A stretch of DNA of 64,000 bases from Methyloceanibacter sp. (GTDB lineage: Bacteria > Pseudomonadota > Alphaproteobacteria > Rhizobiales > Methyloligellaceae), in NCBI GenBank assembly GCA_018067145.1, contig JAGPVD010000071.1, positions 1-64,000 of the forward strand, read 5' to 3'. How positions within the stretch are numbered: the first letter of the stretch is position 1; every line of letters begins with the position of its first letter. This document shows, one piece after another, positions 48,133-50,815 of this stretch. The translations under genes and the position numbers were made by a program. Under the pieces are notes generated by a model. It ran no database searches. It was not told the DNA's origin and saw nothing but the letters and a program-made list of their open reading frames with translations.

Positions 48133-48687
48133 ATGCTGCTCTCCCGCGACAAGTCTCAGCTCCTGATCGTTGATGTCCAGGACAAGCTCCTCCGCGCCAT
48201 ATCAGGCAGAGACAGGGTCATCGACCGCTGTGTGCGGCTCGCCCAGGCGGCGCGCAGGCTCGGCGTGCCAATCACCCTGTCCGAGCAATATCCTCAAGGG
48301 CTAGGACCGACGGCCGATTCAGTCCGCGATGCCGTCGCCGATGAGGGCTATGTGTTCGACAAGGTCGAGTTCTCCTGCCCTAAGAACGAACCGCTGCGCC
48401 GCAGGCTGCATGAGCTTCGCCGCCAAGGCCGATCGCAAGTCGTGGTTGGCGGGATAGAGGCCCATGTCTGCGTGACGCAAACCGCGATGGATCTTGTGGG
48501 CCAGGGCTTCGAGGCCTTCGTGGTCTCCGATGCCGTCGGCTCGCGCTCCAAGGCGAGCTGCAAACTCGCACTGTCCCGGTTGCTCAAGTCCAGCGTCGAC
48601 GTAGTCGACAGCGAGATGGTCTTATTTGAATGGCTGGAGCGTTCCGGCACGCCTGAATTCAAGGAACTTCAGTCACTCATCAAGTGA
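48133..48687 (+). CDS. Isochorismatase-family hydrolase
   Basis: SQLLIVDVQDKLL; QVVVGGIEAHVCVTQTAMDLVGQGFEAFVVSDAVGSRS. Confidence 0.92.
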   Translation: MLLSRDKSQLLIVDVQDKLLRAISGRDRVIDRCVRLAQAARRLGVPITLSEQYPQGLGPTADSVRDAVADEGYVFDKVEFSCPKNEPLRRRLHELRRQGRSQVVVGGIEAHVCVTQTAMDLVGQGFEAFVVSDAVGSRSKASCKLALSRLLKSSVDVVDSEMVLFEWLERSGTPEFKELQSLIK

Positions 48688-48798
48688 GCGGTGGTTTTCT
48701 GAACGGAAGCTGCACCCCCAGTTCATGCGCGGTTCAGGCGGACCAGCGCAACATGCTCCTCGTCAGGTCCCTGGGCTGGCATTAGCGAACCTTCCTCG

Positions 48799-48832
48799 GC
48801 ACCGGGCGCGGAGTTCAGGGGCTCCGCGTCCA
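48799..48832 (+). repeat. 34-bp repeated palindromic element, copy 1
   Basis: GCACCGGGCGCGGAGTTCAGGGGCTCCGCGTCCA with hairpin CGCGGAG-ttcagggg-CTCCGCG. Confidence 0.85.
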
Positions 48833-48852
48833 TCCTCCCCAGCATTCGTCGC

Positions 48853-49000
48853 ACCGCTCTAGCTCGTCGAGATCAGCCCGCTGGAGCGGCAGAGCGTCCT
48901 CCCATACGCGCTGCAATTCGAGCCCGCTTGGGTCGAGATCGGACACGAAGTAGACGATGGCCGTCTGCCCTATCCCGGTGCGCTACAGTGTGCGCGGTGC
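48853..49000 (-). pseudogene. Short fragment reading RTGIGQTAIVYFVSDLDPSGLELQRVWEDALPLQRADLDE
   Basis: Coherent amino-acid stretch but no start codon and no flanking domain. Confidence 0.3.
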
Positions 49001-49047
49001 TAGGTTGATATGCTCGGCTTGCGGGGAACGCCAATGAGGGAGGCTTC

Positions 49048-49269
49048 GTGGTGCCTAAGCAGAAGTACGAAAACGACAACCTCACCGTCTTCTACGATCC
49101 GAAGGTTTGCATCCACGCCGGAGACTGCGTGCGAGGTCTTCCGTCCGTCTTTGATATCGCAAAAAAGCCATGGATCAATGTGGACGGCGCGCCCACCGAA
49201 AAGATCGTCGAGCAAATCAAGCAGTGCCCCTCTGGCGCGCTTAGCTACAAGCTGTCAAAAGACGTGTGA
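49048..49269 (+). CDS. Small (4Fe-4S) mono-cluster-type protein (Fer4_19/divergent), GTG start
   Basis: CIHAGDCVRGLPSVFDIAKKPWINVDGAPTEKIVEQIKQCPSGALSYK. Confidence 0.87.
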   Translation: MVPKQKYENDNLTVFYDPKVCIHAGDCVRGLPSVFDIAKKPWINVDGAPTEKIVEQIKQCPSGALSYKLSKDV

Positions 49270-49303
49270 AATCAGTGTAGAATTGGCCAACCCACCTTAA
49301 CGG

Positions 49304-49519
49304 CTAATTGCGATACTTGCGCTTCTTGGTTGGCTTTGGCGTGAGGTCGGCTATGCAGTTAGCCATGAACGCTTCCCACGCCCCTCGCCGTAGCGGCAAC
49401 GTTGCCTGCCGCGCCTTCTCAAAACAGAAGGCTTCGATTTCCCGTGGCGCAGCCGAAGCGAGGGTCACGCTCATCAACGCCAGAAAGGTGACCGCCACCA
49501 GCACACATTTCGGTTTCAA
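49304..49519 (-). CDS. Small secreted hypothetical protein
   Basis: Signal peptide MKPKCVLVAVTFLALMSVTLASAAPR. Confidence 0.5.
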   Translation of the reverse strand: MKPKCVLVAVTFLALMSVTLASAAPREIEAFCFEKARQATLPLRRGAWEAFMANCIADLTPKPTKKRKYRN

Positions 49520-49607
49520 CGTTTGGCTCCTTACCTTCCAGCCAAGGCTGGCACATCAGCAGGTCCAAAAGGGTACCATGAAGCTCGGCGCATTGCCGTG
49601 AATGTTG

Positions 49608-49844
49608 CTAAGCTGCCGGGACTGCTTTGGCCCGTCGGGTGAGCGAATTTCGGTAAGCATCGGCGGCGGTATCGCCTGAGGGAAAGCCTTGTCGGAAGTT
49701 GTAGGCATCCGCGCCTTGTGCAGAAGAAATCGTTCCGTCAAGCAAGAGGTCTTCGTCGGAGGCATTTACCTGTTCGGCAGTTGTGGCAACCAGCGCCAAC
49801 GCTAGTGCACCGAATGCCGCACGGTTTAGGAAGGACTTGGTCAT
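49608..49844 (-). CDS. Small secreted hypothetical protein
   Basis: Signal peptide MTKSFLNRAAFGALALALVATTAEQVNA. Confidence 0.5.
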   Translation of the reverse strand: MTKSFLNRAAFGALALALVATTAEQVNASDEDLLLDGTISSAQGADAYNFRQGFPSGDTAADAYRNSLTRRAKAVPAA

Positions 49845-50011
49845 CAAGATTTCCTCTGCTTGGATTGCAAACGAGATCGACCTCCTAAGAGGCGTCGTCC
49901 ATAGGCGCCTAACCTTTACCATCAAAAGAAAATGCATCGCCTAATGTCGACTTTGTCCACATCTTGGCCACCCATCATTCGGGGATCCCGCTTTCCCGCA
50001 GGCCGTGCCGT

Positions 50012-50045
50012 GCACCGGGCGCGGAGTTCAGGGGCTCCGCGTCCA
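50012..50045 (+). repeat. 34-bp repeated palindromic element, copy 2
   Basis: Identical to 48799-48832, same orientation. Confidence 0.85.
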
Positions 50046-50209
50046 CCCGGGCCCAGTCCCAGAACCACAATTTTCGCCTGCGACATTCAGTTTTCGAATG
50101 TGAGCAAGCGTGCGGCCTTACGATATGTGGACCCGCTTGCCTCACCCCGGTGGAAGCATTAGCTTTCGGTCGTCTTTCCCAACCCTCATACATTCGCCGG
50201 AGACCTATC

Positions 50210-50815
50210 GTGGCATTCGAACTCCCACCCCTGCCCTATGGCTACGACGCGCTTCAGCCTTATATGTCGGCCGAGACGCTCGAATATCATCATGACAAGC
50301 ACCACAAGGCCTATGTGGACAATCTCAACAAGTTCCTGCCTGGCACCGAGTTTGAAGGCATGGGGCTTGAGGAAATTGTCACGGCGAGCTTCGGCAAGAA
50401 CGCCGGCGTGTTCAACAACGCAGCCCAGGACTTCAACCACATCCAGTTCTGGAACTGGATGAAGAAGGACGGCGGCGGTAAGAAAATTCCTGGCTCGATC
50501 CTCGCGCTGATCGACCGCGACCTTGGCGGCTACGACAAGTTCCGCGCCGACTTCATCAACGCCGGCGTGACCCAGTTTGGCTCAGGCTGGTGCTGGCTTA
50601 CACTCAAGGACGGCAAGCTTGAAGTAACCAAAACGCCAAACGGAGAGAACCCTCTGGTTCATGGCGGCTGGCCGTTGCTCGGTTGCGATGTGTGGGAGCA
50701 CTCCTATTACATCGACTATCGCAACGCGCGGCCGAAATATCTCGAAGCATGGTTTGACGATCTCATCAACTGGGCTCATGTCGAAGAGATGTACGCACAG
50801 GCGCCGGGTAAATAG
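50210..50815 (+). CDS. sodB: Fe/Mn superoxide dismutase, GTG start
   Basis: VAFELPPLPYGYDALQPYMSAETLEYHHDKHHKAYVDNLN; GCDVWEHSYYIDYRNARPKYLEAWF. Confidence 0.96.
   Translation: MAFELPPLPYGYDALQPYMSAETLEYHHDKHHKAYVDNLNKFLPGTEFEGMGLEEIVTASFGKNAGVFNNAAQDFNHIQFWNWMKKDGGGKKIPGSILALIDRDLGGYDKFRADFINAGVTQFGSGWCWLTLKDGKLEVTKTPNGENPLVHGGWPLLGCDVWEHSYYIDYRNARPKYLEAWFDDLINWAHVEEMYAQAPGK

Follow-up and report, generated by a model that had tools for sequence, protein, structure and literature searches.

The stretch of DNA analysed here (the window, 64,000 nucleotides of contig JAGPVD010000071.1 of a Methyloceanibacter sp.) contains, between an isochorismatase-family gene and sodB, the gene of an Fe/Mn superoxide dismutase, two exact and co-directional copies of a 34-mer at positions 48799–48832 and 50012–50045 on the + strand. 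An earlier note on this DNA had described both copies as hairpin-forming and had placed between them a gene for an Fe-S mono-cluster protein and two small ORFs, all of which we can confirm, the first of the three genes being of the Fer4_19 type (Table 1). The chance expectation for such a pair of 34-mers was 0 (100 dinucleotide shuffles). Ungapped identity between the copies reaches 37 nt with one mismatch, and the hairpin was calculated to fold with −22.4 kcal/mol on the + strand (z −3.8) versus −16.1 kcal/mol on the − strand. No additional copy was found at up to three mismatches in the 2.34-Mb genome bin (82% complete); single-copy statements for this genome (G000) and for those of two congeners, G001 and G005, are lower bounds, the draft bins being incomplete.

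Table 1. Features at and around the two hairpin copies, numbered from the first nucleotide of the window
Feature	Position	Strand	Basis
Isochorismatase-family gene, usual 5' neighbour of the element	48133..48687	+	
Operator-like box TGAAC-N15-GTTCA-N6-GTTCA, conserved, upstream of copy 1	48700..48736	+	Pattern search; aligned in 21 copies
Candidate -10 hexamer CANNNT (CAACAT), 7 nt before stem 1	48749..48754	+	Alignment of 21 copies
Copy 1, complete candidate RNA element	48754..48839	+	Covariance-model match, 88.5 bits
Stem-loop 1, CGTCAG / loop GTCCCTGGG / CTGGCA; outermost C-A unpaired here	48761..48781	+	Structure and alignment analyses
Pyrimidine-rich linker TTAGCGAACCTTCCTCGGCACC, conserved	48782..48803	+	Comparison
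Stem-loop 2 of copy 1, loop TTCAGGGG complementary to loop 1	48804..48831	+	Fold and alignment
Inserted pocket, 1179 bp, exactly between the hairpin copies	48833..50011		Absent at this site in relatives
Fer4_19 divergent 4Fe-4S mono-cluster protein (PF06902, E 4.9e-26)	49048..49269	+	Pfam match
Small ORF, signal-like N-terminus	49304..49519	-	No Pfam or PHROG match
Dispersed-repeat fragment (EARRIAVNVAKLP coding tail)	49578..49625	+	
Small ORF	49608..49937	-	No Pfam or PHROG match
Copy 2, 3' stem-loop only, at its ancestral place upstream of sodB	50012..50045	+	44.1 bits, 5' part matched poorly
Candidate sodB promoter, sigma70-like, conserved (TTGCnTC ... TTAGCTT)	50137..50166	+	Conserved alignment block; inference
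sodB, Fe/Mn superoxide dismutase, GTG start	50210..50815	+	

Conservation upstream of sodB and at a second locus

When 40 relatives were searched for the 23-nt core of the 34-mer, it was found singly, upstream of and co-directional with sodB, in 14 of the 16 sampled Methyloceanibacter genomes, two of these 14 (G001 and G005) having at sodB only the 3' part of the larger element described below. The earlier note had considered a simple local duplication, with the 34-mer present only twice and missing from relatives; it does occur just twice in this genome, but relatives have it, so that local duplication by itself explains the finding only in part. In Methyloceanibacter the hairpin lies on the same strand as sodB and 137–280 nt from its start, and the element usually follows the isochorismatase gene in congeners. 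The element is also present in a second genus, Methyloligella, there ~660–680 nt upstream of sodB. Outside these two genera, covariance model R1 detected none in a sample of 298 genomes of the order, and a class-level match (G584, E 0.0036), weak and without the box, was taken as chance. In Rfam no family scored above the gathering score, the sub-threshold matches all lying outside the element, for which no tRNA or tmRNA identity was found. Phages yielded no element match, plasmids only matches at chance level, and pattern matches in viral contigs were likewise attributed to chance. Some congeners carry TTCAT repeats at ~11-nt spacing between the element and sodB (L028, L030, L035), possibly a further operator.

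With the box pattern and model R2 a second conserved copy of the element was found in G003, G004, G009, G014 and G000, in each case ~50 nt upstream of a sequence for a 31-aa hydrophobic peptide (MSSFKLLATSVVLVAAWAGAVGLVTVFFATI and variants), which is frameshifted in G003. The copy in G009, picked by model R2 at 46.5 bits and complete with box, both stems and peptide, is an independent match, since G009 was not used to build the model. IS6 and resolvase-like pieces lie near the second locus in G000; that the locus is cargo of a mobile element was ruled out by its conservation in G003, G004, G009 and G014. A conserved stretch (CGCACTTCGTTCTGACTGAGCGTGATTGGTAAT) follows the 31-aa peptide downstream of the second-locus element (L208, L209, L210, L211).

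Structure of the element and its candidate promoter

On these comparisons the 34-mer is not a scattered repeat but probably the 3' stem-loop in a structured RNA element of ~70 nt that is restricted to this lineage. The conserved region reaches ~100 nt upstream of the 34-mer hairpin and comprises, from 5' to 3', a GTTCA box, a CANNNT hexamer, stem-loop 1 with the loop CCCUG, a pyrimidine-rich linker (AACCTTCCTCGGCAC) and stem-loop 2, which is the 34-mer, with the loop CAGGG. RNAalifold predicted both stems without being given them. In an alignment of 18 sequences, which was fitted to model R1 and hence leans towards the structure, 96.9% of the cells were paired versus 31–49% for slid structures, four pairs had changes on both sides, and the covariation score was reached by no shuffle; an earlier MAFFT alignment had given 98.5% versus 22–50%. 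Imperfect pairs on the + strand were G-U in 20 cells and A-C in 5, a bias suggesting that the RNA is transcribed in the direction of sodB. The covarying pairs together with this G-U bias on one strand make a conserved structured RNA likely. Loops 1 and 2 were complementary in all 14 complete copies tested (5–8 bp). Since CCCUG and CAGGG are invariant in the native copies, support for loop pairing comes from the divergent copies, the three most divergent of which have 7–8 Watson-Crick pairs between the loops (shuffled-loop frequency ≤0.0008).

In 21 of 21 complete copies the CANNNT hexamer stands below the GTTCA box and 6–8 nt before the GTCA(A/G) of stem 1, a spacing that would suit a promoter from which transcription begins at stem 1. 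The box pattern TGAAC-N15-GTTCA-N6-GTTCA was found 1–3 times per genome and the reversed pattern, used as a control, 0 times; the GTTCA box resembles tandem response-regulator sites and is a candidate operator. It also fits GTTC-N7-GTTC, the form of alphaproteobacterial LexA boxes, but recA of the genus has TGTTCGCAAGATGTTCT, whereas the box of the element reads GGTTCA-N5-GGTTCAG plus an upstream TGAAC. LexA (SOS) control was considered and set aside as doubtful because the recA box of the genus (TGTTCnnnnnnTGTTCT) is unlike that of the element. A related box (CTGAACCG..CTG....CCGTTCATC..GTTCAGC) is present near small secreted proteins (L187, L189, L198), which suggests a wider regulon of the same regulator.

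Foreign DNA at the 3' hairpin

Comparison of the window with its relatives shows foreign DNA inserted at the hairpin: the site is empty in relatives, the direct repeats cover the 3' end of the element, and a complete element is present on one side only. When DNA integrates at the 3' end of an RNA gene, it typically leaves the gene whole on one flank and a 3' fragment of it on the other. Three of 17 genomes of the genus are split at this same element. In G005 only the 3' hairpin is left at sodB, with other DNA, including a gene for an Mrr endonuclease, upstream of it. In G001 the 5' half of the element follows the isochorismatase gene and is itself followed by a VapE-type gene, and on another contig a phage-type integrase gene (phrog_1, E 1.4e-8) stops ~90 nt short of the 3' part that has remained in front of sodB; the enzyme is a tyrosine integrase. 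G001 also has a second complete, divergent element with its own box, ~2 kb beyond the native 5' half, which is truncated (L077 13915-14052). The earlier note had supposed that recombination between the copies could excise the pocket; that they are prone to recombination is supported by the absence of the pocket from the site in relatives and by the other DNA in the element of two congeners.

Pieces of the pocket have partial, scattered homologues elsewhere in the genus and no counterpart at this site, and no integrase or recombinase is encoded in it. The dispersed repeat (~40–47 nt) has at least eight further copies in the genome bin and others in congeners, and several of the copies read DEARRIAVNVAKLPELL near the end of an ORF. 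In G005, too, a copy of this repeat marks the point upstream of sodB at which the contig breaks off.

A site-specific integration event at the RNA gene's 3' end is the most likely origin of the split. Foreign DNA would have entered at the 3' hairpin in this genome, the complete element (copy 1) would have stayed on the isochorismatase side with a second hairpin (copy 2) at sodB, and the 1.18-kb pocket would be the remainder of the inserted DNA. We infer this mechanism rather than observe it, since the pocket lacks an integrase and the two junctions in G001 have no clear core sequence in common; relatives of the G001 integrase have no copy of the element and use other sites. Islands and prophages at the 3' ends of tRNA, tmRNA and sRNA genes show the same arrangement of a complete gene and a short identical 3' fragment with foreign DNA between them, and in one congener an integrase adjoins the site as it does there; the window differs from them in having no integrase and in that the crossover can be placed only approximately. 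It is quite conceivable, if not the reading that we favour, that the second hairpin came instead from an event without site specificity, be it illegitimate recombination, gene conversion or a break that happened to fall at the hairpin. Such an event would agree with a pocket devoid of recombinase, with the scattering of its homologues through the genus, and with a flank of copy 2 that differs between G000 and G005, but it accounts less well for a perfect identity of 34 bp that covers just the 3' end of the element and for splits of the same element in three genomes, in one of which an integrase gene lies next to the remaining 3' part.

Leader or small RNA

The explanation that best covers the whole, and that we consider probable, is an RNA element with its own regulated promoter, serving as a leader or as a processed sRNA, that was split by foreign DNA. 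The element would be transcribed towards sodB from this promoter, and its two complementary hairpin loops, with the pyrimidine-rich linker between them, could form a kissing interaction. Most likely it would be a 5' leader tuning the downstream gene, which is sodB at one locus and that of the 31-aa peptide at the other; alternatively a short sRNA might be processed from the leader. Two features lead us to prefer a 5' leader: at either locus the element invariably points the same way as the gene that follows, and it has no canonical terminator, a U-run being absent after the 3' stem-loop. At sodB a leader function is uncertain owing to the second promoter-like block downstream of the element. 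Sequestration of the Shine-Dalgarno sequence by the linker was not consistently predicted, the partners varying between copies.

The main rival to a leader is an independent trans-acting sRNA gene with incidental neighbours, its linker and loops pairing with target mRNAs. This is possible, though we are doubtful: the promoter-like box and the spacing of the start site would suit such a gene, as would a sodB with a promoter-like block of its own and at a varying distance (137–280 nt), but the missing terminator after stem 2, the invariable co-direction with the next gene and the mere ~50 nt from the element to the start of the peptide at the second locus speak against it. A precedent is ChvR of Caulobacter crescentus, a two-component-controlled sRNA with pairing stem-loops, which is restricted to that species, where it is located upstream of recF/gyrB (PMC6237742). 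As an alphaproteobacterial RNA with several stem-loops, two-component control and pairing via stem-loops, ChvR is the nearest functional analogue of our element, not a shown relative; no sequence relationship is claimed, and the ChvI motif TTGC-N3-GCAA (PMC9731502) is unlike the GTTCA box. No work on sRNAs in Methyloceanibacter came up in a literature search.

That the palindrome acts as DNA only, as an attachment or protein-binding site from which no RNA is made, we regard as improbable. The palindrome resembles the core site of a tyrosine recombinase in having 10-bp inverted arms with an 8-bp spacer between them, and insertions do happen there, but an RNA would better explain why G-U pairs favour one strand, why the two hairpins have complementary loops and why a promoter-like box stands at a constant distance. 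The REP-like family mobilised by a RAYT transposase, which the earlier note had envisaged, is hardly credible, since the palindrome is GC-rich and intergenic as in REP/RAYT elements but is not repeated across the genome, its copy number (two here, one core copy in most relatives, always at the sodB locus) excluding this identity, and since the conserved unit, promoter included, is far longer than the palindrome.

Returning to an RNA element with its own promoter, we tentatively suggest, going well beyond the probable reading given above, that it might represent a new class of RNA in Methyloceanibacter and Methyloligella, namely a two-hairpin kissing-loop leader. At both loci this leader would be driven by the same response-regulator-type promoter, it would control superoxide dismutase at one of them and a 31-aa membrane peptide at the other, and its 3' hairpin would double as an attachment site of mobile elements. 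The analysis adds an undescribed candidate RNA, possibly a loop-loop switch, to an oxidative-stress gene of methylotrophs, cultured strains included. It also indicates that the end hairpin of an RNA gene can turn into an insertion point, parting the gene from its upstream control, and that what appeared to be a repeat would be a regulatory element and its scar.
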